Shown here: piece after piece, positions 12,474 to 30,525 of the stretch
Layout of the letters: every line of letters starts with the position of its first letter
Numbering within the stretch: position 1 is the first letter of the stretch
NCBI GenBank assembly: GCA_005893275.1
Contig: VBOW01000001.1
Coordinates: forward strand, 1-35,212
Length of the DNA: 35,212 nt
From: Candidatus Eisenbacteria bacterium
GTDB taxonomy: Bacteria > Eisenbacteria > RBG-16-71-46 > SZUA-252
Direction: 5' to 3'
Translations under genes and position numbers: made by a program
The notes under the pieces: generated by a model
Database searches by the model: none
Seen by the model: the letters and a program-made list of their open reading frames with translations, nothing else
What the model was told of the DNA's origin: nothing

Positions 12474-13527
12474 GCCCGCCTCCGAAGCTCCGGAGCCCGT
12501 GCGCGTAAAGCCCGCCTCGGACGTACCTGCGAGCTGCTGGGATGACTACGTCCGTCGCAACCCGCAGGGAACCCTGTGCCACCTCCGAGCCTGGCTCGAC
12601 ACAGTCGGAGCCGCGTACCCGTATGAGTCTCACTCTCTCGTCGCCGAGCGAGGCGGCGTCCTATGCGGAGCGCTCCCCCTGTACCGGGCTCCGGTATTCC
12701 CGTCCGGCGCGGCGCTCATCTCCTCACCCGCCGCGATCTATGGCGGCATCATCGCGGACGATCCCGCCGCCGCGCGCGCCCTCTTGACCTCGGCCGCCGA
12801 GCTCGCGGATCGATTTCGGGTCCGATACCTCGAGCTGCGAAACAGGACGGCGACGGGCAATCTTCAAGTCAAGAACCTCTACGTGACCTTTCGAAAGCCG
12901 ATCGCTCGCGATCCGGAGCGCAACATGAGAGCCATTCCCACCCGGCCTCGCACCGCGATTCGCCGGGGCATTCGTCTCGGACTCGAGGCCGAGCTGGGAG
13001 GAGAGGAGCTGTTGCGGGAATTCTACCGGGTCTACTCCATCAACATGCGGGACCTGGGGAGCCCGCCCTATCCTCCGTCTTTCTTCCAGGGCTTGCTCCG
13101 CGCGTTCGGCAACGATTGCCGAATCCTGATTGTCCGGCACAAGAGTCGCGCCGTGGGGGGGGCGGCGGCGTTTTTCTTCCGGAACGAAGTATTACCCTAC
13201 TGGGGGGCTTCCATCCGCTCGGCCGCGCGAGAGCTTTGCGTCAACGATTTCATGTACTGGACCCTGCTGAGCCGCGCTGCAGAGCGGGGGTGCGAGCTGT
13301 TCGACTTTGGCCGCAGCAAGGTGGGGACGGGAGCCTACCATTTCAAGCGTCACTGGGGCTTCGAGCCGACCCCGCTCCCGTACCAGTATCATTTGGTAAC
13401 GCAGAAAAACTTGCCTGATTTGAGCCCGCTGAATCCTGGATTCTCGCTGCCGATCCTTCTCTGGAAGCGGATGCCCATTTCCATCACCCGCTGGCTGGGC
13501 CCCAAGCTCCTGCGCTTTTTCCCGTGA
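12463..13527 (+). CDS. FemAB-family protein, XrtA/PEP-CTERM locus type
   Basis: A 354-residue protein with the double-GNAT fold of FemAB peptidyl/acyl transferases, most like the subfamily found in PEP-CTERM EPS loci (TIGR03019 by recollection). Supporting segments are YVRRNPQGTLCHLRAWLDTV near residues 28-50, ALPLYRAPVFPSGAALIS, YGGIIADDP, the YLELRNRT strand, FYRVYSINMRDLGSPPYPPS in the second half, and CELFDFGRSKVGTGAYHFKR, which closes the fold. No signal peptide or membrane helix is seen. In known FemAB enzymes the acyl donor is an aminoacyl-tRNA; in the EPS-locus group the donor is not established. The start ATG overlaps the epimerase stop. It differs clearly from the three acyltransferase-like genes that follow. 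Confidence 0.85.
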   Translation: MQAEPASEAPEPVRVKPASDVPASCWDDYVRRNPQGTLCHLRAWLDTVGAAYPYESHSLVAERGGVLCGALPLYRAPVFPSGAALISSPAAIYGGIIADDPAAARALLTSAAELADRFRVRYLELRNRTATGNLQVKNLYVTFRKPIARDPERNMRAIPTRPRTAIRRGIRLGLEAELGGEELLREFYRVYSINMRDLGSPPYPPSFFQGLLRAFGNDCRILIVRHKSRAVGGAAAFFFRNEVLPYWGASIRSAARELCVNDFMYWTLLSRAAERGCELFDFGRSKVGTGAYHFKRHWGFEPTPLPYQYHLVTQKNLPDLSPLNPGFSLPILLWKRMPISITRWLGPKLLRFFP

Positions 13528-14744
13528 AGATTCTCTGTCTGTGCCATCGGATTCCATATCCCCCGGACAAGGGCGACAAGATTCGGTCCTTCCATCAAGT
13601 GCGCGCGCTTTCAAAGAATCACCGCGTTCACCTCGCGTTCTTGATCGATGATCCCGCCGATCGCACCCACCTGGATGCCGTCGAGCGATTCAGCGCCACG
13701 GTGGACTGGGCCTACCGTGGCCGGCAGGCCTCGATGGCCCGAGCGGCCTTTGCGTTGCCTTCACGGACCCCTTTCTCGGTCGCGGCATTCCACTCGCCCA
13801 CGCTCCATCGTAAGGTGCGCGATCGCATCCGAGCGGAGCGCCCCGATGCGGCTCTCGTCTTCTCCACGGCAATGGCGCCCTACGTTCGCGGGGAGCGGGG
13901 CATGGCGAAAGTCCTCGATCTGGTCGATGCGGACTCCGCGAAATGGCGGTCCTACGCCGACTCTCACACCCCGCCCTTATCGTGGATGTACCGCGAAGAG
14001 GCGAAGCGCCTTTCGCGGTACGAGGTCGCGGCGGTGGAAGACTTCGACGAGGCCATCGTCGTTTCGGAGGCGGAAGCCGAGCTTCTGCGCGCTGCCGGCT
14101 CGCGACGGGAGATCACGGTGATCCCCAACGGCGTCGATGTGGAGTACTTCCAGCCCGAGGCAAACTCCCCCGAAACGGCCGCGGAGCCCGCGGTGGTTTT
14201 TTGCGGGGCGATGGATTACCTCCCCAACGTCGACGGCGCCCGCACCTTTGCCGCGGAAGTCTTTCCACTCATTCGAAGCAAGGAAGGGACCTGCACCTTC
14301 TACATCGTCGGCCGAAATCCGACGGCGGCCGTCCGCAAGCTCGCCGAGCTACCGGGCATCGTGGTGACCGGAAGCGTGCCGGATACCCGGCCCTACCTTC
14401 GCCGCTCGCGGGTGGCGGTCGCCCCCCTGCGGATCGCGCGCGGCATCCAGAACAAGGTCCTGGAAGCGATGGCCATGGGTCTTCCCATCGTTGGAACACG
14501 GGTCGCCTTCCAGGGAATCGGCGCGACCTCGGAGGACGGTGCTCGGATCTCGGACTCGCCCCGCGAGATGGCGGAAGCCGTGCTGGAGCTCCTGAAATCC
14601 CCCGAGGCTCGTCGCCGTTCCGGCGCTCGCGCGAGACAATTCGTGATGGAGCGTCACCGCTGGGAAGGCCACCACGGCATGCTAGAGGCGTTGCTCCAGC
14701 GGGCGTGCGAGCGGCGCATCGCCGCCGGAGAGGTCACGCCATGA
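13524..14744 (+). CDS. Glycosyltransferase, PEP-CTERM locus type (TIGR03087-like)
   Basis: A GT-B fold retaining glycosyltransferase of 406 residues that should add one sugar to the lipid-linked repeat on the cytoplasmic face. The N-terminus VKILCLCHRIPYPPDKGDKIRS with HQVRALSKNHRVHLAFLIDDP closely fits the stp1 sugar-transferase family of exosortase A loci. The C-terminal GT4 part has VIPNGVDVEYFQP, VVFCGAMDYLPNVDG, APLRIARGIQNKVLEAMAMG with the E in the EX7E-type motif, and a closing RHRWEGHHGMLEAL. The GTG start overlaps the FemAB stop (GTGA) and the stop overlaps the next ATG (ATGA), so it is embedded in the operon. The donor sugar is not readable from the sequence. Confidence 0.9.
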   Translation: MKILCLCHRIPYPPDKGDKIRSFHQVRALSKNHRVHLAFLIDDPADRTHLDAVERFSATVDWAYRGRQASMARAAFALPSRTPFSVAAFHSPTLHRKVRDRIRAERPDAALVFSTAMAPYVRGERGMAKVLDLVDADSAKWRSYADSHTPPLSWMYREEAKRLSRYEVAAVEDFDEAIVVSEAEAELLRAAGSRREITVIPNGVDVEYFQPEANSPETAAEPAVVFCGAMDYLPNVDGARTFAAEVFPLIRSKEGTCTFYIVGRNPTAAVRKLAELPGIVVTGSVPDTRPYLRRSRVAVAPLRIARGIQNKVLEAMAMGLPIVGTRVAFQGIGATSEDGARISDSPREMAEAVLELLKSPEARRRSGARARQFVMERHRWEGHHGMLEALLQRACERRIAAGEVTP

Positions 14745-15856
14745 CGGAAGGCGCGTACGCTTTCGAGGAGATTCAGACCTTTCAGGAATTCCTCGCCCTC
14801 GAAGACGAGTGGAACGACCTTCTGGACGGAAGCCTCGCGGATCTGCCCTTTCTCCGACACGAATGGTTTCGCATCTGGTGGTCGCAGTTCGGCGTCCAGC
14901 ACAGGCTCGCGATCATTCTCGGAAGACGGGGGAGGAAGGTCTGCTTCGCGGCCCCCTTGATGGAGCGGAGCCGACGGATGATGGGACTGCCGCTCACCTG
15001 CCTGCAATCGTTGACGAATGATCATTCCTGCCGGTTCGACCTCTTGGTGCGGGAGGGAGAGGAATCGGCCCTGGAGCGGTTCTGCGGATACCTCGCCCGA
15101 AGGCCGCGACCGTGGGACCTGCTCCTCCTCCAAGATGTGGCGGAGGACAGCCCGGTGCTTCCCGGACTGATCCGCGCCGCCCGCAATGCCGGGTACCGCG
15201 CGGAAGCCGATCATGCGTACACCTGTCCGTATCTCCCGCTGGGCGGATCGTGGGCGGATTACTGGAGCGGGCTCAAACCAAAGTTCCGCTCGAACATTCG
15301 GAATCGCTCCACGAGAGTCGTTCTCAGGGGCCCCCTCGATTTCCGCGTCGCTTCCGATCCCGAGCAGGTTGCGGCCGCGTTGGCCGTCGGGATCGAGCTG
15401 GAACAGAGGAGCTGGAAAGGCAACGCAGGAAGCGCGATCGCATCCGATCCGTCCGTCGCGGCCTTTTACACCCAGTGGATGCAGGTCGCCGCCGACCGGG
15501 GATGGGCCCGTCTCTCCCTGCTGACCGTTGGCTCCGAGCCCGCCGCCTTCGACTGCGGGCTGCGTTACCGGGACCGCTTCTACTCGGTCAAGATCGGCTA
15601 CGACCCCGAGTTCGCACCGTACTCCGTCGGCCAGCTGCTGAAGCGAGAGCTGCTCCAGAGGCTCTTCGCGGAGGGCGTGAGAGAGTACGACTTCTTGGGC
15701 GAAATCAATGATTCGAAACGAGACTGGCTCCCGCGGACACGGGAGCACGAGTGGATCTTCGTGTACGGACGGGGAATCCTCCCGCGCTTGCACTACGCAT
15801 ACAAATTCCAGCTTCGTCCAAGAGTGAAGGCGCTGTTGAAACGGGCGGGGAAGTGA
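14741..15856 (+). CDS. FemAB/GNAT-like (BioF2/CelD-type) acyltransferase 1
   Basis: A 371-residue acyltransferase-like protein with a double-GNAT fold of the Acetyltransf_6/CelD type seen in polysaccharide loci. Family landmarks are EFLALEDEWNDLLDGS, FLRHEWFRIWWSQFG, LAIILGRRGRKVCFAAPLM in the N-terminal half and KPKFRSNIRNRSTRV, LEQRSWKGNAG, RLSLLTVGSEPAAFDCGLRY and FYSVKIGYDPEFAPYSVGQL in the C-terminal half. The YSVGQLLKRELL segment corresponds to the SPG-type turn of this family. Probable role: N- or O-acylation of an EPS sugar. It is a diverged paralogue of the genes at 17198 and 18414, sharing the EW-x2-LL and WW-x-QFG patterns. ATG overlaps the previous stop; GTG of the next gene overlaps its stop. 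Confidence 0.85.
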   Translation: MTEGAYAFEEIQTFQEFLALEDEWNDLLDGSLADLPFLRHEWFRIWWSQFGVQHRLAIILGRRGRKVCFAAPLMERSRRMMGLPLTCLQSLTNDHSCRFDLLVREGEESALERFCGYLARRPRPWDLLLLQDVAEDSPVLPGLIRAARNAGYRAEADHAYTCPYLPLGGSWADYWSGLKPKFRSNIRNRSTRVVLRGPLDFRVASDPEQVAAALAVGIELEQRSWKGNAGSAIASDPSVAAFYTQWMQVAADRGWARLSLLTVGSEPAAFDCGLRYRDRFYSVKIGYDPEFAPYSVGQLLKRELLQRLFAEGVREYDFLGEINDSKRDWLPRTREHEWIFVYGRGILPRLHYAYKFQLRPRVKALLKRAGK

Positions 15857-16992
15857 AGCCAAGGATCCCGTTCATCCAGCCGCTTACTCCCGGGGATTTC
15901 CTGGGCGCCAGACGAGAAACGTTGGCATCCATCGCGCCGCCAGGCACGCGACACCAACTCTACTACCTGGCGCGAAACGCGATTTGGCACGGAGTCCGGG
16001 CGCTCGGGCTCAAGGAGGGGGATGAGGTGCTGGTGCCCGCGTATTGCCACGGGGTGGAAATCGACGTGCTCCTCGCGCTCGGGCTCAAGCTCCGCCGCTT
16101 CCGGATCGATGCCTCGGTGCGCCTCGACCCCTCGGAGATCGCCCGGCTCATCTCCCGCGACACGCGGGCGATCTACGTCACTCATTACTGGGGCTTTCCT
16201 CAACCGATCGAAGCCATCCGAAACCTGGCGGATGGCCACGGTCTGCCTCTAATCGAGGACTGTGCTCTCTCCATGTTTTCCAAGTCCGGAGACAGACTCC
16301 TGGGCACATTTGGCAGCATGGCGATCTATTGCATCTACAAGACGCTGCCGGTTCCCCATGGAGGGGTCCTTGTGCTCAACCGGGACTCCCTGCCGATGCC
16401 GGCGGCACCGATACCGCCCGATCGCACATCGACCGCCGCCTATTGCGTCCACCGCGGTCTCGACTGGTTGGAGTTGAGATGGGGGGAGCCGGGGCACCGG
16501 GTTGCCGAGCTGGCCCGTTCCGTGGCCCGAGCCCTCAAGGGATGGAGCAAGCATGCGCCGGTGTTGGTCGACACGAACCGCCTGGATCCCCGTTTCCTCG
16601 ACCTCGGCATCTCACCCCTGGTGTCGTACCTGATCTCGCGAGCCGACGCCGAGGCAATCGCGCGTCGACGCAGAGAGAATTACGCCTGCCTGCTGAAGCA
16701 CCTCGATCCTCAAGTCCGCGTGGTCCACCCCGATCTGCCTGCCGGGGTCTGCCCCCACTCCTTTCCGATCCTCGCGCAGGACAAGGAATCGCTCCAAGCG
16801 AGGATGCAGGAGGAGGGGATCGAGACCATAAATTTTTGGTCTCGGACCCACCCCGCCATCTCCGAGGAGTCCTTTCCCGAGATCGGGTTTCTCAGGCGGC
16901 ACGTCCTCGAAATCCCGGTTCATCAGAGGCTTCACCCGGGGCACATGAAATACATGGCCCATACCTTGAACCGGGTGGCCCGGTGGACATGA
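15853..16992 (+). CDS. DegT/DnrJ/EryC1-family PLP aminotransferase
   Basis: A 379-residue PLP-dependent enzyme of the sugar aminotransferase family, expected to convert a nucleotide-linked ketosugar to an aminosugar with glutamate as amino donor. Motifs in order: LYYLARNAIWHGVRALGL, EGDEVLVPAYCHGVEIDVLL, YVTHYWGFPQPIEAI, LIEDCALS (the aspartate that holds the pyridine nitrogen), LLGTFGSMAIYCIYKTLPVPHGG with the probable Schiff-base lysine, and HQRLHPGHMKYMAHTLNRV at the end. The lysine context is KTLPVPHGG rather than the common K-x-G-E-GG, so activity on a usual substrate is not certain. Its GTG overlaps the acyltransferase stop, and its stop overlaps an ATG that now begins only a degenerate gene remnant. 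Confidence 0.85.
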   Translation: MKPRIPFIQPLTPGDFLGARRETLASIAPPGTRHQLYYLARNAIWHGVRALGLKEGDEVLVPAYCHGVEIDVLLALGLKLRRFRIDASVRLDPSEIARLISRDTRAIYVTHYWGFPQPIEAIRNLADGHGLPLIEDCALSMFSKSGDRLLGTFGSMAIYCIYKTLPVPHGGVLVLNRDSLPMPAAPIPPDRTSTAAYCVHRGLDWLELRWGEPGHRVAELARSVARALKGWSKHAPVLVDTNRLDPRFLDLGISPLVSYLISRADAEAIARRRRENYACLLKHLDPQVRVVHPDLPAGVCPHSFPILAQDKESLQARMQEEGIETINFWSRTHPAISEESFPEIGFLRRHVLEIPVHQRLHPGHMKYMAHTLNRVARWT

Positions 16993-17190
16993 ATCTTGTT
17001 GCGGAGGCCGTTCCTGCCCTCGCGCGCCGCGGCTCCATCGTGCCCGACGCGCGCCTCAAGAAGTCGCAGTATACTCTTGGGGGGGCGCTGATTTGGGCCG
17101 CTGGAGCGCCACGTTCCGATTGGAAGCGGAGATGCTGAACCGGAGCCTGCGAACGACCGCGAAAACGGCGCTGCGCCGAAAAGATCCCGA
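16989..17190 (+). pseudogene. Collapsed remnant of a FemAB/GNAT acyltransferase gene
   Basis: Three blocks match the intact gene that follows, in order but with the sequence between them missing. 17001-17033 is identical over 33 bases to 18002-18034. 17046-17094 resembles 18149-18197 (protein DARLKKSQY versus DPRLKQTQY). 17096-17185 closely resembles 18326-18415 (RWSATFRLEAEMLNRSLRT versus RWGAAFRLEAERLDRSLRT). The gap between blocks one and two equals a 102-base in-frame deletion; that between two and three equals 127 bases and shifts the frame. The ATG at 16989 overlaps the aminotransferase stop (ATGA), as functional genes here do, so it may be the original start. What remains in that frame encodes only about 49 residues and cannot form an acyltransferase. 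Confidence 0.85.
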
Positions 17191-17197
17191 GGACGAA

Positions 17198-18433
17198 GTG
17201 ATCGAACCGGCATCGAGGAGCCTCAAGAAGGAGATCGGGGGCCGAGATGGGTTTGCGCGGGCGACACGCCCTCCTACGAGTCTTGTTGCGAGCCTATGCC
17301 GAAGCACCGAGGAATTTTCCCTTCTGGCGGACGAATGGGACGGGCTCCTGGAGCGGAGTCGATCCCATTCCGTGTTCTTGAGCTGGGGATGGCTCTATGC
17401 CTGGTGGCGCCAGTTCGGAGGCGGGCGAGAGCTCGCTCTGATCCTCGTCCGGGATCCCGCGGGGCAGCTTGTGGGGATCGCGCCGTTCTGCCTCGAGCGC
17501 CGGGGGAGGATTCCTTCGGTCCGGGTGGTTTCCTTTCTGGGAACGGAGCGGGTCAGCTCGGAATACTTGGACGTGATCGCGGACCCGGCACGCGAGGAAG
17601 ATGTTCTGGCGGCGGTGTGGCATGCCCTCATGGGGGAGGGGAAGAATTGGGACTGGCTCCGGCTCACGGACCTGCTCGAGTCGTCCCTGGTTCTGCGGCA
17701 TCTCAGGCCCCTGTGCGAGCAGGCGGGCTACCGAACGGTCCTGTCCAACTCGGAGGTCTGCCCCTATTTGACCCTTCCACCCACGGCGGAGGCGCTCCCG
17801 AAGTGCTTGGGACCGAATATGAGGGGAAACGTCAAACGCAAGATTCAAAAGCTTCGTGAGATCGGAGCGGACCTCGTTCCCCTCGAAACCGTGGAGGAAA
17901 TGAAGTCCGCGTTGCCGACCCTCTTCGATCTCCACGCGAAGCGCTGGGCCGCCCGGCGGCTCCGCGGGAACTTCTGGGATCCCCGCGTTCGCGCTTTTCA
18001 CGCGGAGGCCGTTCCTGCCCTCGCGCGCCGCGGCAGGATTCGTCTCTTCGAGCTCCGCGTCGATCGCCGCCCGATCGCGTTCCAATACGCGCTTCGCTTT
18101 CGGGACACCTTTTTCCTGTATCAGGTCGGCTTCGATCCGCTTACTCCGGACCCGCGTCTCAAACAAACTCAATACAGTCCGGGTGTGGCGTTGATCGGGC
18201 TCTGCCTGGAAGACGCCGTACGAGAAGGCCTCCGGGAGGCTGATTTCCTGCGCGGAGGGGAGGGCTACAAGCTCGAATGGACCAAATCCTCGAGAACGAC
18301 TTCGTGCCTGACGGCCGTCACCCCCGGCCGCTGGGGCGCCGCGTTCCGATTGGAGGCGGAGAGGCTGGACCGGAGTCTACGAACGATCGTGAAAAAGGTG
18401 CTGCGCCGCCAGGGTGCCGATGTCTCGCTATGA
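17198..18433 (+). CDS. FemAB/GNAT-like (BioF2/CelD-type) acyltransferase 2
   Basis: A paralogue of the gene at 14741, sharing EEFSLLADEWDGLLERS, FLSWGWLYAWWRQFGGG, LALILVRDPAGQLVGIAPF, then PNMRGNVKRKIQKLRE, FDLHAKRWAARRLRG, RIRLFELRVDRRPIAFQYAL and FFLYQVGFDPLTPDPRLKQ. A double-GNAT acyltransferase of EPS decoration is the likely role. The start is uncertain. The frame is open back to TTG 17093, with ATG at 17132, but that part is the tail of the decayed upstream copy. GTG 17198, with GAGGA at 17189-17193, is the first start after the remnant and gives 411 residues. The first 20 or so of these still have no family counterpart. The end overlaps the next gene by 20 bases. Confidence 0.85.
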   Translation: MIEPASRSLKKEIGGRDGFARATRPPTSLVASLCRSTEEFSLLADEWDGLLERSRSHSVFLSWGWLYAWWRQFGGGRELALILVRDPAGQLVGIAPFCLERRGRIPSVRVVSFLGTERVSSEYLDVIADPAREEDVLAAVWHALMGEGKNWDWLRLTDLLESSLVLRHLRPLCEQAGYRTVLSNSEVCPYLTLPPTAEALPKCLGPNMRGNVKRKIQKLREIGADLVPLETVEEMKSALPTLFDLHAKRWAARRLRGNFWDPRVRAFHAEAVPALARRGRIRLFELRVDRRPIAFQYALRFRDTFFLYQVGFDPLTPDPRLKQTQYSPGVALIGLCLEDAVREGLREADFLRGGEGYKLEWTKSSRTTSCLTAVTPGRWGAAFRLEAERLDRSLRTIVKKVLRRQGADVSL

Positions 18434-19604
18434 ATCGGCGTTGACTTCCGAGCCTCACGACCCCGTTTCGGTCGAGGTGGATTGGTACGACCGACTCGAG
18501 CACATCGAGGCGCTCGAACCCGCTTGGCGAAGCCTCGAAAAGTGCGTGGGATCCCGGATGATTTTCGCGGGTCCGGATTTCGTCATTCCCTGGTACCGCC
18601 ATTTCTGCGGCTCCGGATGGACTCCCCTCCTGGGAACCGCGTGCGCGGGCGGCCGGCTGGTCGGGCTGGCACCCCTCGTGATGTGGAACGGATCGCTGGG
18701 GAAGGTCCCGCTCCGCCGCGTTGATTTCGCCGGGCACCAGTGGGATGCGGGGGAGTTCCTTGCGGAGGAAAACGCTCCGCGACCGGCGGGCGCCCTGCTG
18801 GAGGCCCTCGCGCAGCGGAGGAAGTTCGACGTTCTTTGTTTCGGAGGATTCGAGCCCCAGTCCAGGATACTGGGAGAGCTTCGCGACGCGGCGGCTCGCG
18901 TCGGATTTCCGGCGATCACGAAGAGCTATGCCTATGCGACTGTCGACCTGCGTGGCGGATTCGAAGCGTATTGCCGTTCCATGACCAACAACTTCCGGCG
19001 GAATCTGAGACGGCACAGGTCCAAGGTGGAGTCCGCGGGCGTGCCGGGCCTGGATCGCTTTCTCCCGCCTCAGCCGATCGGAGCGTTGCCCGAATACCTG
19101 GAGCGCGTGTTCCGGATCCAGGAACGCAGCTGGAAGGCCCGAATGGGACCGCCTTCTCCACGGCACCGCGGTTTTTTCGACGAGTCGGTCCGTCGCTTTG
19201 CGGAGCGGGGGATGATCGACATCGGCATTCTGACAATCGATGGAGAAGACGCCGCGTTTCTCGTGGGGGTTGTCGAGCGAGGTGTTTACTATGATTTCAA
19301 CATCTCCTTCGACTCGAGATTCGAGAACCTCTCTCCCGGCACGTATCTGTTACATGAAATCTTGAGAACGCTCCCGGACGCCGGTGTGCATACCGTGGTC
19401 TCCCACGGAGACCACGAGTACAAGCGTCGCTGGGCCACCGGTCTTGTTCCGCAGACGCGGGTATTTTTCTTCGGGTCGGGCCCGCGGGCCGTCCTTGCGC
19501 GGGCGACCAGATTCATGCTCCCCGCCGCATGGAGGAGCCTCCGCCGACGATCCGCTCGAGCGGCGTCCAAAGATCCGGGTAGCCAGAGATGGACGCGATC
19601 GTAG
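18414..19604 (+). CDS. FemAB/GNAT-like (BioF2/CelD-type) acyltransferase 3
   Basis: A 396-residue protein of the same acyltransferase group but further diverged. Landmarks: HIEALEPAWRSLEK, MIFAGPDFVIPWYRHFCGSG, LLGTACAGGRLVGLAPLVM, RVDFAGHQWDAGEFLAEE, FEAYCRSMTNNFRRNLRRHR (the basic helix after the strand), IQERSWKARMG, IDIGILTIDGEDAAFLVGV and YDFNISFDSRFENLSPGTYL with the SPGTYLLHE turn that is characteristic of Acetyltransf_6 proteins. The start is GTG at 18414 or, two codons later, ATG at 18420; both lie inside the end of acyltransferase 2. The last 30 residues are basic and may be disordered. Its tail overlaps the start of the GT-deacetylase fusion by 16 bases. Confidence 0.85.
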   Translation: MPMSRYESALTSEPHDPVSVEVDWYDRLEHIEALEPAWRSLEKCVGSRMIFAGPDFVIPWYRHFCGSGWTPLLGTACAGGRLVGLAPLVMWNGSLGKVPLRRVDFAGHQWDAGEFLAEENAPRPAGALLEALAQRRKFDVLCFGGFEPQSRILGELRDAAARVGFPAITKSYAYATVDLRGGFEAYCRSMTNNFRRNLRRHRSKVESAGVPGLDRFLPPQPIGALPEYLERVFRIQERSWKARMGPPSPRHRGFFDESVRRFAERGMIDIGILTIDGEDAAFLVGVVERGVYYDFNISFDSRFENLSPGTYLLHEILRTLPDAGVHTVVSHGDHEYKRRWATGLVPQTRVFFFGSGPRAVLARATRFMLPAAWRSLRRRSARAASKDPGSQRWTRS

Positions 19605-21856
19605 CCACGGGGTCCGAACGGGGACCGCGGCGGGACGCCGCCTCGCGTCGGCCGCTTCGAGTGATGCACGTAGTGAATGCCCTGGGGGTCGCAGGCCTGG
19701 AATACGGGGTGATCAAGATCTGCAACGGGCTGGACCCCACCCTGTTTGAGCCGAGCGTCTGCAGCATCCGCTTCGAGGGAGACGGGGCGCGGGAGATTCT
19801 CCATAGCCGTATCCCGAGCTTCCAGCTCGACAGGGGGCCGGGCGAGGATTTTCGGGTGGTGCCTCGCCTGGCCGAGCTTCTTCAACGCCAGCGGATCGAT
19901 ATCCTCCATTCTCACAATTGGCTGACGTGCTTCTACGCCCTCGCCGCCGCCTACCTCGCCAGGACTCCCGTCGTGATCCATGGCGAGCACGGCCGCGACG
20001 AGCTGGAGGTTCCAGCCGAGCGTCTGGGCCGGAGACGCCTCCTGGCGCAGCGGGCGCGTCACCTTGTGACCGTGTCGGAGAATCTCCGCATGGAGATGAT
20101 CAATCGGTGGCTGCTTCCAGGGGAACGGATCACCTCCATCCCCAACGGAGTGGACTTGGCCGCCTTCGGGTCCGACTACGATTGCGATTCCCTCCGGCGT
20201 GAATTCAATCTCGAGCCGTCCCACCGCGTCATCCTGAACATCGGCCGGATTGAACCCATCAAGGATCACGCGACGCTTCTCGAGGCCTTCGCGAGGGTGC
20301 ACCAGCGCCGCCCGGAATGCCGCCTGCTCCTCGTCGGGAAAGGAGAGCGCGCGGGTCTGGAGTCCCAGACAGCCGCCCTGGGAATCCGGAGCACCGTTCT
20401 GTTCGCCGGCCTCCGGCGGGAGATTCCCCCGATTCTTCGAATGAGCGCGGTCTACGTTAACTCATCGCGCTTCGAGGGAATGTCGAACACCATTCTCGAG
20501 GCGATGGCCTCCCGGCTTCCGGTGGTGGCGACGGCCGTGGGCGGCAACCCGGAGCTCGTTCGCGACGGTCGAACGGGCTATCTGGTTCCGCCGGGAGACC
20601 CGGCCTCGATGGCGGACCGTCTGGAGCGACTCCTGGGGGACCCGAACCTGAGCGCGGAGATGGGTCGCGAGGCCCGGCGAATCGTGGAGACCCACCACTC
20701 CCTCGATGGAATGATTCGTGCCTACGCGGAGCTCTACACCAGCGTGTGGCAACGACGGTCCCTCGAGCGACACGCTCCCATCGCGGAGCGGCTGCGGCTG
20801 GCGGCGGCGGGCGTCCTCTGTCGTGCGCGGCGGCGACCGCCCAGGAGTCCGCGGACACCGCCGCGGCTGATCATTCTTGCCTACCATCGGGTCCTCCCCC
20901 TGTCGGAGGCGCTCCGGTACCCATTCCCGGGAATGGTCCTTGCTAAGGATCTCTTCGAAGCTCAGATGTGGCACCTCTCGCGGCGATACAACGTCCTGCC
21001 GTTAGGACGCGCGATCCGTTCCCTCCAAACGGGTGATCTTCCCGAGGGGGCGGTCGCGCTTACCTTTGACGACGGCTACGCCGACAACTACGAACACGCA
21101 TGGCCCATTCTGGAGCGGTGCGGGCTACCCGCGACGTTCTTCCTCGTCACCCGCGCCGTGGATCGAGAGCTCGTTCTGTGGTGGGATGAAGTCGCCGCGG
21201 TCGTGGAGCGTCTCGCCACGGGGGGAGCTGCGGCCAAGGCGGTCGATCTCGTCCGGCTCCCGAAGCCCGTGGGCGAAATTCTTTCGGCCCTCGATCATGG
21301 AGCGTCCGCGCAGACCGTGTGCCTCCGGCTGGTTCGAGCGCTCAACGGGACTCCGCGCGAGGGACGGACGAGCGTGCTGGAACGGCTCGGAATCCCGCAG
21401 CCGCGCGTGGATGGGGATCGTCCCAACATCATGATGACCTGGGCGCAGGTCCAGGAAATGCGCGCCTCCGGCGCGGAGTTCGGCGCCCACACGGAAGCAC
21501 ACGAATTCCTCGACGAGACGGACCCGCTGACGACGCGACGCGAGATCGGCGGCAGCGTCCGGACGATCACCGAGCGTCTGGGGGCCCGAGTGACGCTCTT
21601 TGCCTACCCCAGCGGACGCTTCTCGCCTTCGGTTCTTCCCGCGCTCCGCGAAGCCGGAATCGAGGCCGCGGTGACCACCGAGGGGGGGTGGAATGGCCCG
21701 GGACAGGACCTCTACCGGCTGAAGAGGATGGACGCGGGATTCGCATCCACCCGGACGCGATTCTCGCGCAGCCTATTCGATGCCGAGGTGCAGGGAGTCT
21801 TCAATCCAATCCGAAAACTCGCAGAGGGACTGATCTCACAGAGGATCGACGCCTGA
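19589..21856 (+). CDS. Fusion of GT4 glycosyltransferase and CE4 polysaccharide deacetylase
   Basis: A 755-residue two-domain protein. Residues about 22-385 form a GT-B glycosyltransferase like the stp2 (TIGR03088) family of PEP-CTERM loci: VMHVVNALGVAGLEYGVIKI, DILHSHNWLTCFYA, VVIHGEHGRDELE, VSENLRMEM, SIPNGVDLAAF, VNSSRFEGMSNTILEAMAS. A basic proline-rich linker (about 405-425) leads to a NodB-like CE4 domain: LIILAYHRVLP, LTFDDGYADNYEHAWPIL with the catalytic Asp pair at 494-495, the metal-binding H634-x3-H638 in FGAHTEAHEF, and LFAYPSGRFSP. The expected role is sugar addition followed by N-deacetylation of a HexNAc residue by one polypeptide. No signal peptide is visible, so both domains appear cytoplasmic, unlike most exported CE4 enzymes. 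No stop or start signal separates the domains. Confidence 0.92.
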   Translation: MDAIVATGSERGPRRDAASRRPLRVMHVVNALGVAGLEYGVIKICNGLDPTLFEPSVCSIRFEGDGAREILHSRIPSFQLDRGPGEDFRVVPRLAELLQRQRIDILHSHNWLTCFYALAAAYLARTPVVIHGEHGRDELEVPAERLGRRRLLAQRARHLVTVSENLRMEMINRWLLPGERITSIPNGVDLAAFGSDYDCDSLRREFNLEPSHRVILNIGRIEPIKDHATLLEAFARVHQRRPECRLLLVGKGERAGLESQTAALGIRSTVLFAGLRREIPPILRMSAVYVNSSRFEGMSNTILEAMASRLPVVATAVGGNPELVRDGRTGYLVPPGDPASMADRLERLLGDPNLSAEMGREARRIVETHHSLDGMIRAYAELYTSVWQRRSLERHAPIAERLRLAAAGVLCRARRRPPRSPRTPPRLIILAYHRVLPLSEALRYPFPGMVLAKDLFEAQMWHLSRRYNVLPLGRAIRSLQTGDLPEGAVALTFDDGYADNYEHAWPILERCGLPATFFLVTRAVDRELVLWWDEVAAVVERLATGGAAAKAVDLVRLPKPVGEILSALDHGASAQTVCLRLVRALNGTPREGRTSVLERLGIPQPRVDGDRPNIMMTWAQVQEMRASGAEFGAHTEAHEFLDETDPLTTRREIGGSVRTITERLGARVTLFAYPSGRFSPSVLPALREAGIEAAVTTEGGWNGPGQDLYRLKRMDAGFASTRTRFSRSLFDAEVQGVFNPIRKLAEGLISQRIDA
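21841..21845 (+). promoter_or_regulatory. Ribosome-binding site that supports a CTG start
   Basis: GAGGA (within AGAGGATCG) is followed by seven bases and then CTG at 21853-21855. The CTG overlaps the stop codon of the fusion gene as CTGA, in the same manner as the ATGA and GTGA overlaps elsewhere in this operon. No ATG, GTG or TTG lies in frame nearby. Confidence 0.6.
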
Positions 21857-24288
21857 TTCTGTGGCTCAAAGAACTTCCGGGTTGCGATCCCCGCATTGTT
21901 GGAGGCAAGGCGGCTCGCCTGGGTGATCTCCGGCGGGCCCAGCTCCTTGTCCCCGACGGCTTCTGCGTCACCGTGGAGGCCGCGCGCGCGGCGCTGGAGC
22001 GCGTGAAGCAGGCTTCGGGACGCTCGCTTCAGGCAACGACCCACGCGCGAGAGGTACAGGATGCGCTTCGGAAGGAGCCGCTCCCGGCGCAGCTCTTGGA
22101 GCGCCTGGAGGGAGCCTATTCACTCCTTCGCGCTCGAAACAGGCCCGATCCGGCCCTCGTGGTTCGCTCGTCCGCCGTTTTTGAAGACAGCGCCCACCAC
22201 AGTTTTTCGGGCGTCTACCATACGTCTCTGGGGGTCACCGACTTCTCCGGACTGGTCGACGCGATTCGTGAGTGCTGGGCGTCGGCCTGGAGCCCCGAGG
22301 CGCTGGCGTACTGCGAGCGGATGGGCTATCCCGTCGGCGACGCGTCCATGGCGGTTCTGGTCCAGGTTCAGATGCGCGGGCGCGTCTCGGGGGTCATCTT
22401 CACCGCGAATCCGCTCACCGGAAATCCCTTCCAGATCTGCATCAACGCGGTGCCCGGTGCCGGCGAGGCCTTGGTGTCGGGCGACGCTTCCGCGAGCGAG
22501 TGGATTCTCGGCCGCGATGCACGCGTCGAACGAGCATCGAGCGGGTCGGCGGACCTTCTCTCTGAGAAGGAGCTCCGGGCGCTCGTCGACATCGCGAACC
22601 GAGTCGAGGACTTGATGCGCGGGCCGCAGGATGTGGAGTGGACGCTGGGGCAGGATGGGATCTTCGTCCTCCAGGCGCGACCGATCACCGCACTCCCTCC
22701 GTACTTCCCGGCGCCCGAAGAGCATTCGAGCCGGGTCTGGAAGCTGGCCTTCGTCGGCCTCTTTTCCCCTTTCGGTCTCTCCTTGGAGTCCATCAAGAAC
22801 CCGATCTACGAGGACGCCATACAAAGGACTCTGGGGCGGGTCGTCCGGCACCACCAGCGGGTCGTGCATGGATACCTCTACGATCGGAAGGTGACTCCCC
22901 GTTGGAGCTGGCTTCTGCTCCCGTGGTCGCTCTACAAGCACATCCGGCTCCTGGCTCGCATTCCTTCTCTCGACCGGGAGTACTATCGACAGCTGGAGCC
23001 AAGCTACCGGACCGTCATAGCAAAGCAGGTGGAGGGCGCCGAGCGGGAACGACATCTCCCGGCCCTCTGCGCCGGTGTGGACGCCCTGGTGGAAGCGTAC
23101 CTCGAGTTCCAGCGGCGTTCGGTCGCGCCCGGGAGCCTGTCGAATCTTTTCCCGCGGCTCGTGCGCCGTCTCGTCCTGGCGAGCGGCCTGAGCGAGGAGC
23201 CCACGGAGGCGCTGGATATTTTCGGAGGGCTCGCGAATGCCACTCTGGCGCGAGATCGGACCCTGGCGGGGTTTTGCCAGGAGCTGACCGAGTCAGGTCT
23301 TGCACGGGAGCTTGCGGGCTCGAGGGATTGGGACGAATTGAGACGCCGCTTCAGCGCCCGCGCGGACGGGCACCGCTTTCTGGAACGCTGGGACGCGTTC
23401 TATCGCGATTTCGATTACACCTGGGCGGAGGGAAATCCCAAAGATCCTGGATGGAGAGAGGATCCCTCCACGGTGTTGACGGTCCTGCGCAAGATGGTGG
23501 AGACGGGATCGAGCCGCGCCACAATCGAGCGCCTCGCCTTTCAGACGCGGCGAAGGCACGAATTGCTTGCGCTTTGGTCCCGGCGACTGGATCCGGTCCG
23601 CCGCGCGCTCCTACGCGCGCTCGTGACCTATGCCTGGCGCTATTTCCCCATTCGCGAGGACCACAACCACATGTTCTATCGCGGCGTGGCCGCGATTCGA
23701 CAAGTCCTCTTGGCGATCGGGAAGGAGCTTGTCGCAAGGGGCGTTCTTCTCCAACCGGAAGAAGTTTTTTTCCTTCGTTATGAAGAAGTCAGAGACCTCG
23801 CGGGGGTTTGGGATCCGTCCAATCTCACACGCGTCGTCAGGGACCGGCGCGAGGAATTCAAACGGAATCGAAGGCTCACGCCGCCCTACGAGCTGGGGGC
23901 AAAACCTGCGCCCCGAACCGCCTCCATCGCGGGAGAGGACGGGGCGCTGCGCGGAAACGGGGCGAGCGCGGGGGTCGCCCGTGGGCCCGCCCGCGTCGTC
24001 CTGGATCCCGTCCGCCTCCCGGAGCTTCGGCAGGGGGAGATCTTGGTCTGCCCCAAGGTGCGCCCGTACTACACCCCCTTCCTGGCCATGGCGGCTGGGC
24101 TGGTCACGGACGAGGGCTCCTTGCTCTCCCACGGCGCCAATCTCGCCCGGGAGTACGGAATTCCCGCGGTTCTCGGGATCCACGGGGCGACACGGCACAT
24201 CCGGACGGGCGAAGTCGTCGTCGTCGACGGCTCGGCGGGGACCGTTCGGATTCTCGAAGCCCCGGCCGTGGGGGGGCGCGGCGCGTGA
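21853..24288 (+). CDS. PEP-synthase/rifampin-phosphotransferase-like protein
   Basis: An 811-residue protein with the PEP synthase layout. The N-terminal ATP-grasp PEP/pyruvate-binding domain (1-280) shows IVGGKAARLGDLRRAQLLVPDGFCVT, VVRSSAVFEDSAHHSFSGVY, AVLVQVQMRGRVSGVIFTANP and GPQDVEWTLGQDGIFVLQARPI. A long helical middle part is poorly conserved. The C-terminal swivelling domain has GPARVVLDP, EILVCPKVRPYYTPFLAMA and LLSHGANLAREYGIPAVLG with the phosphoryl-accepting histidine near residue 760. There is no C-terminal PEP/pyruvate TIM barrel, so it resembles rifampin phosphotransferase more than PpsA; it may move a phosphate from ATP to an EPS intermediate. The family N-terminus aligns with the residues right after CTG 21853; an upstream GTG near 21688 would add about 55 residues lying inside the fusion gene. 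Confidence 0.82.
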   Translation: MILWLKELPGCDPRIVGGKAARLGDLRRAQLLVPDGFCVTVEAARAALERVKQASGRSLQATTHAREVQDALRKEPLPAQLLERLEGAYSLLRARNRPDPALVVRSSAVFEDSAHHSFSGVYHTSLGVTDFSGLVDAIRECWASAWSPEALAYCERMGYPVGDASMAVLVQVQMRGRVSGVIFTANPLTGNPFQICINAVPGAGEALVSGDASASEWILGRDARVERASSGSADLLSEKELRALVDIANRVEDLMRGPQDVEWTLGQDGIFVLQARPITALPPYFPAPEEHSSRVWKLAFVGLFSPFGLSLESIKNPIYEDAIQRTLGRVVRHHQRVVHGYLYDRKVTPRWSWLLLPWSLYKHIRLLARIPSLDREYYRQLEPSYRTVIAKQVEGAERERHLPALCAGVDALVEAYLEFQRRSVAPGSLSNLFPRLVRRLVLASGLSEEPTEALDIFGGLANATLARDRTLAGFCQELTESGLARELAGSRDWDELRRRFSARADGHRFLERWDAFYRDFDYTWAEGNPKDPGWREDPSTVLTVLRKMVETGSSRATIERLAFQTRRRHELLALWSRRLDPVRRALLRALVTYAWRYFPIREDHNHMFYRGVAAIRQVLLAIGKELVARGVLLQPEEVFFLRYEEVRDLAGVWDPSNLTRVVRDRREEFKRNRRLTPPYELGAKPAPRTASIAGEDGALRGNGASAGVARGPARVVLDPVRLPELRQGEILVCPKVRPYYTPFLAMAAGLVTDEGSLLSHGANLAREYGIPAVLGIHGATRHIRTGEVVVVDGSAGTVRILEAPAVGGRGA

Positions 24289-25799
24289 TGCGGCGGACTC
24301 TGACGGAGCGGGCGGGTGTGCTCGCGGGTGGGAACGCGCTGAACATCCTCGCGCTGTTCTTCATGCCGCTGATTTTGACGCGGATCCTGAGCAAGGAGCT
24401 CTTTGGGATTTACAACCAGGCCACGCTCATGGGGAATATTCTCTATCCGATCTTCACGGCCGGTATCGCGGCAAGCATCTACTATTTCCACGCCAGCCTG
24501 GAGCCCGCGCGGAGACCAACCCTGATCGCCCAGAGCATTGCCGGGTTCTTCTGCCTGGGCCTCGTGGCGGCGGCTCTGCTTTATTCCGGATCGGGTCCGA
24601 TCGCCGGGCTGTTCCACAACCCCGGGGCATCGCCCGTCCTGCGGGCCTACAGCCTCTATCTTTTTTTCTTCATCGCCGGAGATGTGCTCTTTCCGTACCT
24701 CGTGCTCTTCGACCACATTCGATGGGCCGTCCTGGCGGGGCTGTTGGAGGCGCTTCTCCGATATCCGGCGGTCCTGCTTGCGGTGCACTTCGGATTCGGG
24801 CTGCCAGGGATCTTCATCGGGCTCGCCGCTCTCATGGCCTTGAAGTACGCCCTGACGCTTGGCTTCCTAACGCGAAAGGTTCGTTGGCAGGACCTCCGCC
24901 CGCGGCCCGGGTTGATTTCCGCCCAGGTACGGTACGCGGCCCCTCTCGGCGTCTCCAACGCCATCGGCACGCTGGGCCAATACGCCAACCGGGCCGTGGC
25001 CGCGGGCGGACTCACCGCGACCCAATACGCGGTCTACACGGTAGGAAGCATCCAATTTCCGGTGTCCTCTATTTTCAACAAGGCGATCCGGCCGATCCTT
25101 CGCGAGGAATTCTCGCGCGCGGGGTCGGAGGGGCGTCATGCCGACATCGTCGCCGTGTGGAGGGAATCGGTTCGAAAGCAGTCGTTGATCGTGAACCCGC
25201 TGTTCGCGTTTCTGATGCTCTTTGCGGGTCCCGTGATCGAGGTGCTTTACACGTCCGCCTACCTGGAGAGCGTCCCGGTGTTCCGAGTTCTCCTCGTCCT
25301 GCTCCTCCAGACCGTCGTGAGCTTCAGCATCATACCCGAGTCCCTCGGAAGAACCGACATCACGCTGCGAGCCTCGGCCATCTCCCTGATCGTGAGCCTC
25401 GGGCTGAGCCTCGTCCTCATCCGGCCCCTCGGCCTCCTTGGACCGGCGATCGCCATCGTCGCCGCGACGTATCTGAACGGGTGGTACTCGATGGGTTGGG
25501 TTCGGCGCCTCACGGGCGTTTCCTATCGGCACCTATTCCCGTGGCAGGAGATGGGGCGCATTTTGGGGGTATCGATGGCGAGCGCGGCCGCGGCTTATCC
25601 GGCCCTCTGGGCGCCGCTTCCTCTGATGGCGCGTCTCGGAGGGGCGGGGGTCTTGTTCTCGGCGGTCTACCTCTTTGCGGCCCTGCGCTTGAAGCTTCTC
25701 ACCCATGAAGACCGCGCCTTTCTCCGGCAGGTTTTCGAGCGGCTTCGTGTTCCGCGCCCACTCCTGCGAATCCTCGATCACGCCACACAGGAGCGCTGA
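24288..25799 (+). CDS. Wzx-type oligosaccharide flippase (MVF/polysaccharide transporter)
   Basis: A 503-residue polytopic membrane protein that should flip the lipid-linked repeat unit across the inner membrane. LTERAGVLAGGNALNILALFFMPLILTRILSKELFGIYNQA is the typical beginning of this family (split here into the first helix and the G-x-Y/F-x2-A turn). About 12-14 hydrophobic segments follow, with short basic loops such as LTRKVRWQDLRPRPG and WRESVRKQS between them. The ATG overlaps the previous stop by one base (TGATG); a GTG at 24285 would add one residue. The gene sits between the phosphotransferase and the polymerase/ligase, the classic Wzx next to Wzy arrangement. Confidence 0.9.
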   Translation: MRRTLTERAGVLAGGNALNILALFFMPLILTRILSKELFGIYNQATLMGNILYPIFTAGIAASIYYFHASLEPARRPTLIAQSIAGFFCLGLVAAALLYSGSGPIAGLFHNPGASPVLRAYSLYLFFFIAGDVLFPYLVLFDHIRWAVLAGLLEALLRYPAVLLAVHFGFGLPGIFIGLAALMALKYALTLGFLTRKVRWQDLRPRPGLISAQVRYAAPLGVSNAIGTLGQYANRAVAAGGLTATQYAVYTVGSIQFPVSSIFNKAIRPILREEFSRAGSEGRHADIVAVWRESVRKQSLIVNPLFAFLMLFAGPVIEVLYTSAYLESVPVFRVLLVLLLQTVVSFSIIPESLGRTDITLRASAISLIVSLGLSLVLIRPLGLLGPAIAIVAATYLNGWYSMGWVRRLTGVSYRHLFPWQEMGRILGVSMASAAAAYPALWAPLPLMARLGGAGVLFSAVYLFAALRLKLLTHEDRAFLRQVFERLRVPRPLLRILDHATQER

Positions 25800-27277
25800 T
25801 GTCCCTGCGATTGCTCTTTCTGATGGCGCTTACACCGGTCGGCGTCATTCTCACGCTCATCACTCCGTTCGTCGGGGCGGTGATCCTCATTTTGATCTAT
25901 TTCATACGCCCCGAGGTATGGGGCATGCCCTCGGCCCTGAGTCCCAGCCTGGTCATCACGGGCGCCATGCTCCTGACCGTGATCCTAGGAAAGACAAGGT
26001 TCAGGCTTCCGACCGGCTCTCTATGGCCGATGCTTCTCCTCGGATGCATGGTGAACTCGAGCTTTTCGGCTCTCATCTCGCCGGCCGCGAGCTTTCAACA
26101 GACCTCCGATTTTGCGAAGCTGGCCGTGATGTGGCTCCTGATCGTGCTCGTGGCCGACTCGCCCCGGAGGCTCTACCTCCTTCTCTGGAGCACGGTCGGA
26201 GGAGTCCTGTGGCTCATCAAGTCCGCGATCTACTTTTACGTCACAACGGGCGCGCCGCGGGTGGAAAGGGTAGGCGGGCAGGGAAGCGGGGCCAACTACA
26301 TGTCGGCCATGCTGCTCTTGACGCTCCCGCACTTGCTCTTCGAGGCGTTTGAATCCCGATCGAAGTTCAAGTGGCTGGCACGCGCGCTGGTGCCCCTCTG
26401 GCTCTGGGTGTTCATGCTGACCGGTTCCCGCGGGGGTCTGGTTGGTTTCGTGGTGCTGGTCCTGCTCTACCTGCTTCAGAGCTCGAGGAAGGGGACCGCC
26501 ACGATTCTGACGGTCGTTCTCGCCGGATTTCTGCTCTTCGCAGGGTCGGAGGTGTACTGGAGCCGGATGCGTTCCATAACATCGTACGAGGAGGACGAGT
26601 CCGCCCGTAGCCGGCTGGAGGTATGGCGGGGCGCTCTGGATCTGGCTCGGAAGTACCCGCTCACCGGGATCGGGCTCCAGAATTTCGTTCTGGTGAGCCC
26701 CATGTACACGACCTCCAGAGCCAAAACGACCGGCGAGGGGCTCGAGGCGCACAACACGTACCTTCAAGTCCTGGCCGAGGGAGGCTTCCCGACGCTGATC
26801 GTATTCTTCTGCATGCTCCTCGGGGCGTTCCGGAAGCTGAACCGGGTCGGGCGGGACCCGCCGTCCTCCGGCGACCAAGCGGAACCGAGTCTATGGCAGA
26901 TCCGGTCCGCGGTCCTGACCGGGCTTGGCGCTTTTCTCGGACAGTCCTTCTTCGACAGCAATTTTCACAAAGACCCGCTCTGGTGGTTCCTGGCATTCGC
27001 CGAGGCGCTCGCATGGGTCGCCGCGCGTCAGCCGTCGGCGGAGGCAAGGGGGACGGCTCCCGCCGCGTTGGCCGTGCAAAGAGCCGGGACGTCTACCAGA
27101 AGCGGCCGATCGCCTGCTCGACCATCCGGCGTGCCGTGCGGGTCACCGGGGAGCGAAGCGGCGTTGCCTGGTCCGTCAGCCTCCAGTCCGGAGAAGCAAT
27201 GTCGTCGAATCCAACCGTTCGGAACTTGTCCGGGTGCCGGGCCAGAAACCGGCAGAGGTTCTCGAATCGGTGGATGA
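25799..27277 (+). CDS. O-antigen ligase/polymerase (Wzy-like, exosortase A type)
   Basis: A 492-residue inner-membrane protein. The N-terminus (LITPFVGAVILILIYFIRPEVWG) recalls the DUF5935 region of the ligases found in exosortase A loci (TIGR03097 type). A Wzy_C/O-antigen ligase core follows with WVFMLTGSRGGLVGFVVLVL, YPLTGIGLQNF in the large periplasmic loop, and LEAHNTYLQVLAEGGFPTLIVFF, which has the conserved histidine. It would polymerise the repeat or attach it to an acceptor. GGAG lies just upstream of the ATG, which overlaps the flippase stop. The last roughly 75 residues are low in hydrophobicity, rich in P, S, G and R, and lie antisense to the end of the converging deacetylase gene, so the true functional end may be near residue 415. 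Confidence 0.87.
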   Translation: MSLRLLFLMALTPVGVILTLITPFVGAVILILIYFIRPEVWGMPSALSPSLVITGAMLLTVILGKTRFRLPTGSLWPMLLLGCMVNSSFSALISPAASFQQTSDFAKLAVMWLLIVLVADSPRRLYLLLWSTVGGVLWLIKSAIYFYVTTGAPRVERVGGQGSGANYMSAMLLLTLPHLLFEAFESRSKFKWLARALVPLWLWVFMLTGSRGGLVGFVVLVLLYLLQSSRKGTATILTVVLAGFLLFAGSEVYWSRMRSITSYEEDESARSRLEVWRGALDLARKYPLTGIGLQNFVLVSPMYTTSRAKTTGEGLEAHNTYLQVLAEGGFPTLIVFFCMLLGAFRKLNRVGRDPPSSGDQAEPSLWQIRSAVLTGLGAFLGQSFFDSNFHKDPLWWFLAFAEALAWVAARQPSAEARGTAPAALAVQRAGTSTRSGRSPARPSGVPCGSPGSEAALPGPSASSPEKQCRRIQPFGTCPGAGPETGRGSRIGG

Positions 27278-28060
27278 CGATTCGTGCCGGCCTGGGTTTT
27301 TTCCCCGGCCGGCGCTCGCGTTGCAGCAGCTCGAAGCTGTGGAAGACGATGACGAAGGAGTGCCATCCTTGTTCCCATGCGGCGAGCAGCGCGGCCTCGA
27401 GCTCGGGAGAGGAACAGGCGCAGAGCTGAGCCGGCCTCCAGTGCCCTGGGAAGTCGCGGAAGCAGGAGACCGGGTATTCCTCGATCCCGTGCAGACGCCG
27501 AGGCTGAACCAGGAGGGGATCCACCTCGATCGAGCACCCCGATCCGACAAAGGCGATATTATGACTCGTATCCATCTGCATCCCGCGCGCGGACAGGGCC
27601 CTGAGGGTATCGTGGTTCGCCCCGAAGTTGCCGGCACGAAAGGCCCGCGTTCCGGTGACGCCGCATCGCGCCAGGTTCTCCCTGCCCAGGGTGATGAGGA
27701 TCTCCTGCTCGGCGACCGAAAAGTCCTTCATATTCGGACCGAAATGAGCCCCGAGCGGTGACCTCTCCATCCGCGCCAGCCACTCCGTGTGGATGTGGAG
27801 CTGCATCTCCTGCCCAGCGCTTCGAAGGATCTCCACGATCTGCTGAAGCCTCTCGATGCCGACGACGCACGCGAAGAGCGATTCCACGAAGAAAACAGCC
27901 CTGAGACCGTGCTCGCGAAGGAGCGCTGTCTGATAGGGCAAACCGTAAGAACCCTTCGTCGTCGCTCCCCAGATGTAGCAGTCCATCTCCTCGCCGAGCC
28001 GTGTCTCCCGCCAGTGGGGGGTGTAGGGCCACACCTCGGTGTCCACCGTGATCAACACGT

Positions 28061-28067
<7 letters not shown>
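27093..28067 (-). CDS. Polysaccharide deacetylase-like protein (NodB fold, DTE variant)
   Basis: A 324-residue protein of the polysaccharide deacetylase superfamily. LNVLITVDTEVWPY carries the catalytic acid in a TVDTE rather than TFDDG context; LREHGLRAVFFVESL is the usual second strand; MQLHIHTEWLARM supplies the metal-binding histidines (91 and 93); AFRAGNFGANHDTLRAL and FVIVFHSFELL complete the fold. It should remove acetyl groups from a glycan or its lipid-linked precursor. There is no signal peptide. The GTG start at 28067 overlaps the upstream glycosyltransferase stop by seven bases, with GGAGA nine bases before it; GTG at 28058 is an alternative. It is the last gene of the minus-strand operon and overlaps the convergent ligase gene by about 185 bases. 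Confidence 0.85.
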
Positions 28068-29301
<1,234 letters not shown>

Positions 29302-29305
<4 letters not shown>

Positions 29306-30525
29306 CGGCGGCGGCCGCCCCCCGCGGCATCGCGCCCGCGGCGCGCCTCGTTCCGACTCTGAAGCGCGGCATCGAACGTGCGGACCAACGCCTCCGAGAC
29401 CCGGTCCCACCCGCGCGCCGACGCGGTCTCCGCGATGCTCGCCCGGTCCCACACCCTGCCGAGCCCCAGGGAAATCGCGCGGATGAAATCTGGCGTCGTC
29501 CGCTCAGCCAGAATCCCGACCGACCCGGAATCGACGATCTCAGGAATCCCGCCCGCGCGGCTGGCTACGACCGGGGTCCCGCAGGAGATCGACTCGAGGA
29601 TCACGTTGGGGCAGCCCTCCTGGGCGCTCGCAAGGCAGAAGAGATCCGCCGCGCTGTACCAGAGGGGGAGCGTCGCCTGGTCCTGGGCCCCTCGGAGCAT
29701 CGCGACACCTTGAAGCTCGAGCCGCTGAATCAGCGCCTCGAGCTCACCACGAGCCGGACCTTCGCCCAGGATGACGAGAGAGATTCCTGGAAAAGAGCGC
29801 CGCAGCTCCTGCATGGCACGGATCAGGATGTCGAATCCCTTGTTCCTGGTCAGGTTGCCCGCCGACAGAAGCACGGGCCCCGACGGGACGCCTAGGCGCT
29901 CCCGAGCGGCCGTGCGGCACCAAGGGTGAAACTTCAGGGCGTCGACTCCGTTGGGAATGACATCCACGCGGTCCGCAGCGGCGCCGAGCTCGCACATCTG
30001 GCGCTTGAGCGCGGCGGACACGGCGATCAGGCGATCCGCCTGCGTGAGGCAGCGGCGGAGGATTCCGCGTATCGATCGAAGCCTGGGATAGGTGTGAATA
30101 TCGGTTCCACGCGCGGACAAGACCACCGGAAGACCCAGGTCTTTCCCGATGCGCAGCGCGGCGTATCCATCCGGGAATACGTAGTGTGCGTCGATCAAAT
30201 CGAACGGCGCGCGGCGGTGGAGCTCCGTGACGAGACGGCGTGTTCCCCGGTACATGAGCCAGCCGTAGGAGAACATGCCGACCTTGGGCGTCATGAAATA
30301 CCGCGGATGGTGCACTTCCAGCCCGGACAAGCGCTCGAGTCTTGGGACTTGCGTAAGCTCCCAGCGGTGCGTCCAGCGCAGGGGCGGGAAGTAGGGAACC
30401 GGCGCGACCACCTGGACGGTGTGGCCGGTGTGGCGCGCAAGCTGCGAGATTCGCTCCTGGATGAAGACGCCGTGTCGGGGGCGCACGGAGCTCGGGTACA
30501 GGGAAGTGAAGGTGAGAATTCTCAC
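29302..30525 (-). CDS. GT4 family glycosyltransferase (TuaC-like)
   Basis: A 407-residue GT-B glycosyltransferase. VRILTFTSLYPSSVRPRHGV is the N-terminal nucleotide-fold start, HTVQVVAPVPYFPPL and FDLIDAHYVFPDGYAALRIG follow, and the C-terminal half has VIPNGVDALKFHPW, LLSAGNLTRNKGFDILIRAM, ADLFCLASAQEGCPNVILES (the donor-binding EX7E region) and VGILAERTTPDFIRAI. Of the known groups it looks most like the TuaC/WcaL-type enzymes, but the donor and acceptor cannot be told. The GTG start overlaps the amidotransferase stop (GTGA, 30522-30525); the frame stays open for another 68 codons upstream but those lie inside the amidotransferase gene. The tail is very rich in R and G. Confidence 0.9.

Follow-up and report, generated by a model that had tools for sequence, protein, structure and literature searches.

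A 185-base tail-to-tail overlap in an exopolysaccharide locus of Candidatus Eisenbacteria, very probably a non-conserved 3' extension of the ligase gene

Introduction

Long overlaps between convergent genes are a described class. In the sections of their study drawn on here, Palleja et al. (2008, PMC2478687) judged 124 of 178 long convergent overlaps to be 3' extensions, and errors of assembly or sequencing are among the causes given there for such extensions. In the part of Lillo and Krakauer (2007, PMC2174442) used here, 123:132 accounts for 49% of convergent overlaps of at least 5 bases, more than any other register. A regulatory side is taken up in a review of the excludon concept (PMC7154746), whose relevant passages describe convergent genes that lack an intervening terminator as a source of 3' ends that overlap, and count this arrangement among the layouts of that concept. 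The portions of PMC3389743 and PMC7457138 consulted hold nothing decisive for the overlap treated here.

We analysed a window of 35,212 nucleotides, the whole stretch given above, in which an O-antigen-ligase-like gene and a polysaccharide-deacetylase-like gene run tail to tail through 185 shared bases. As in group iii of PMC2478687, so far as its consulted sections describe that group, the ligase reaches further at its 3' end than related ligases do, and the overlap exceeds 60 bases and is not conserved. The facing gene in group iii is of normal length; here it has 324 residues, compared with 325 (start chosen here) and 316 in the sole two homologues found, both distant. The case is the same in kind as those in the sections cited, with the differences that codon statistics here support the extension and that only distant relatives were compared. 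The register is that of the commonest class of PMC2174442, and we found no difference from that class as the consulted part presents it. The pair also resembles the excludon layout in the passages of PMC7154746 used, being convergent with no intrinsic terminator found between the genes, a likeness in gene layout. The overlap belongs to an already known kind, that of the 3'-extension convergent overlaps.

Methods

Coding signal was scored with a home-made codon model, for which 439 frames out of 760 kb of the genome, the window included, served as the training set. Genes were surveyed in 40 stretches of the genome (725,188 bases) plus the window, with genes at the ends of the stretches lost. 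The 473 controls are called genes of sufficient length with a score of at least 50; the deacetylase is itself among them, and the codon model was trained on the same sequence. The start of the deacetylase, a GTG at 28067, was chosen in this analysis, and its frame is open upstream to 28832. Ligase lengths were compared in the five matches exceeding the TIGR03097 cut-off, leaving out the lower-scoring relatives, since many of these differ in C-terminal layout and some carry additional domains. Structures predicted from single sequences were of poor quality (mean pLDDT 33.4 and 47.7) and were excluded from the evidence.

Results and Discussion

The region 2408-35129 of the window looks like an exopolysaccharide locus of the XrtA/PEP-CTERM type, with family matches over the cut-off for TIGR03019, TIGR03087 and TIGR04063 and below it for TIGR03108, TIGR03027, TIGR03007 and TIGR03018. 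In this locus, 19589-21856 is a single frame in which a TIGR03088-like glycosyltransferase is followed by a C-terminal portion similar to the deacetylase PgaB. A phosphoenolpyruvate-synthase/rifamycin-phosphotransferase-like protein is encoded at 21319-24288 within the exopolysaccharide operon; its listed start falls inside the preceding gene and its codon signal runs from about 21919. The features at the convergent junction are the following.

25799-27277, plus strand: O-antigen-ligase-like (Wzy_C) gene, last of the plus-strand exopolysaccharide operon (PF04932, TIGR03097)
25811-27025, plus strand: portion of the ligase with coding signal (codon-model core; mean 0.262 per codon over 25799-27025)
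27026-27277, plus strand: ligase tail, about 22 codons ahead of the overlap and then the antisense extension (codon scores)
27093-27277, both strands: convergent overlap of the two coding frames, 185 bases, register 123:132 (from stop and frame positions)
27093-28067, minus strand: polysaccharide-deacetylase-like gene, last of the minus-strand operon (weak Polysacc_deac_1 match, homologues, codon-model core 27099-28070)
28061-29452, minus strand: XrtA/PEP-CTERM-system glycosyltransferase of the TIGR04063 family, the gene before the deacetylase (532.8 bits, cut-off 442.05)

The ligase frame runs from an ATG at 25799 to a TGA at 27275-27277 and encodes 492 residues, with a match to Pfam PF04932 (Wzy_C) at an E-value of 3.6e-23 and a TIGR03097 score of 157.9 bits, under the cut-off of 188.1. 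The facing frame ends in ...TARRMVEQAIGRFW followed by a TAG at 27093-27095. Its own match to Polysacc_deac_1 is weak (E-value 0.19), and a search of PDB sequences gave best E-values of 0.12 and 0.5. One of its two distant homologues exceeds the Pfam cut-off, and both of them have D9, H91, H93 and R144 in common with it; residues like these are probably the catalytic ones of polysaccharide deacetylases. The initial annotation had given these stops, 27277 and 27093, and an overlap of about 185 bases, all of which agree with our coordinates. Its position of 27040 falls close to where the ligase codon signal fades (27025), but the overlap starts at 27093. Its report that no terminator hairpin is visible also stands, with 0 intrinsic terminator-like sites found in 26600-27800 against 0.7 expected, and with neither strand folding better than its shuffles (z of 0.99 and 0.38); on these results we reject a hidden terminator hairpin.

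In the overlap, the coding-like reading looks to be that of the minus strand only. This becomes apparent from the GC content at the three codon positions, which is 0.59/0.46/0.81 in the ligase core (25799-27013) and, within the overlap, 0.62/0.51/0.82 for the minus frame as against 0.61/0.82/0.50 for the plus frame. By the codon model the coding cores end at 27025 for the ligase and 27099 for the deacetylase. The ligase tail has a score of -0.115 per codon over 27026-27091, which drops to -0.529 over its last 60 codons (27095-27274). Ranked among the 473 antisense controls of matching register (mean -0.573, sd 0.143), the latter value comes out at the 66th percentile, and it is lower than every one of the 473 true C-termini read in sense (mean 0.244, sd 0.131). 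In the overlap the score of the minus frame is +0.102, which exceeds every antisense control and corresponds to the 11th percentile of the sense C-termini. With the plus frame at -0.529 there is no coding signal in both frames of the kind that dual coding would call for. The composition of the plus tail favours antisense over sense by 16.6 log units, and its richness in G, P, S and R is equally found in antisense sequence of this genome in this register. Two values point the other way: next to the overlap, over 27281-27460, the minus frame reaches no more than 0.004 per codon, and a shifted plus frame has a score of 0.174 over 27092-27184.

Comparison with relatives gives a second line of evidence. 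The ligase was matched in 29 of 59 genomes, the best matches being 25-29% identical. Beyond the column of L398 the five related ligases have 41, 42, 39, 40 and 48 residues, and the window ligase has 94, an excess of about the size of the overlap; given this distance, and given that they are over the TIGR03097 cut-off and the window ligase under it, these relatives are distant homologues and perhaps not orthologues in the strict sense. Among 47 genomes of the phylum the deacetylase turned up in one, namely its own, and at 28-29% identity in two further genomes among 385. In a genome of the same genus (G001) an amidotransferase, two glycosyltransferases and a ligase lie in a similar convergent layout, but there the two genes that face each other are a glycosyltransferase of the TIGR04063 family and a gene resembling a flippase (named from its sequence, not by family search), separated by a 52-base gap with no deacetylase between. 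Scans of genome contigs yielded no relative of either protein, and no close relative showing the old ligase stop was found.

The openness of the ligase tail frame is no greater than chance gives. In 106 of the 473 genes of the sampled genome, the register of the overlap has no stop within 180 bases of the 3' end. Among 5000 synonymous shuffles of the deacetylase, at least 185 bases are open in 6.6% for this register and in 87% and 65% for the other two.

We therefore consider it very probable that the ligase gene lost its stop and was extended at its 3' end, and that this non-conserved extension is what makes up the overlap. The ligase may formerly have ended near the present end of the deacetylase; from the lengths of the related ligases the old stop would fall at about 27110-27137, close to the stop of the deacetylase itself. 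This stop could have been lost through a base change or through the arrival of the deacetylase gene alongside, after which the ligase frame would have read some 60 codons of the deacetylase 3' end in reverse complement until it met a chance stop at 27275. The deacetylase frame would be the one under selection in the overlap, and the extra tail of the ligase, which follows its last membrane helix, is probably unstructured. The reading builds directly on the overlap itself, the coding signal of the minus strand alone, the excess length over relatives and the chance openness of the register; from these we infer that a stop was lost, in what order this happened with respect to the arrival of the deacetylase, and that the tail does nothing. 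That the ligase frame had lost its original stop was already suggested in the initial annotation, and it gains support from the codon statistics, the related-ligase lengths and the finding that relatives lack the deacetylase. A long tail shared by orthologues, named there as what would speak against this, was seen in none of the five related ligases when the C-termini were compared.

It is quite unlikely that the overlap is a selected regulatory device, similar to an excludon, in which the two operons are transcribed into each other and are mutually dampened as their mRNA ends pair or their polymerases collide; antisense RNA with mutual dampening was the other reading offered in the initial annotation. 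The lack of an intrinsic terminator in 26600-27800, the membership of both operons in one exopolysaccharide locus and the described behaviour of convergent genes without a terminator (in the passages of PMC7154746 cited above) would fit such a device. However, the overlap is not kept at the same-genus locus, the 46 other genomes searched in the phylum lack one of the partners, the deacetylase, neither strand has an unusual fold, and overlapping transcripts do not require that the coding sequences overlap. It is very unlikely that head-on transcription through the overlap balances the two halves of the locus and so tunes chain ligation against chain modification.

An error of assembly or sequencing at the 3' end of the ligase that lengthens the frame artificially also seems quite improbable. 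The genome is a draft of 95 contigs, and the cited sections of PMC2478687 name errors of this kind among the causes of 3' extensions. However, a frameshift near 27040 can be rejected, since an indel at that point would lead into one of the other two plus frames, which stay open longer, with their next stops at 27427 and 27761. The error would have to be a wrong base where the old stop was, and the codon-model survey shows no visible frame break within the ligase core.

The least likely reading, which we reject, is that the long tail is a selected part of the protein and the stretch truly codes on both strands: 61 codons are indeed open in a register where only 6.6% of the synonymous shuffles are, but the tail has an antisense-like codon score and composition and is present in none of the five related ligases.

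The extension is most likely an ordinary accident in GC-rich bacterial DNA. With a convergent frame open for 180 bases in about one fifth of the genes of this GC-rich genome in this register, some caution is in order, and such overlaps should be checked by codon statistics and against relatives before they are assigned a regulatory meaning. The survey called 65 convergent pairs in 760 kb; of these, 22 have an overlap, 9 of them by at least 60 bases and 4 by at least 185, the window pair included; two of these four rest on weak calls, one partner scoring 22 in stretch L059 and 15 in L061. Elsewhere in the same genome (stretch L051) a penicillin-binding-protein-like gene (12321-15578, plus strand) and a glycogen-debranching-enzyme-like gene (15360-17543, minus strand) overlap tail to tail by 219 bases. 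Both of their frames score as coding in the overlap (0.159 and 0.328 per codon), in a register, 123:321, that is unlike that of the window pair and may favour such scores. Of the two pairs, this one is the stronger candidate for true dual coding.
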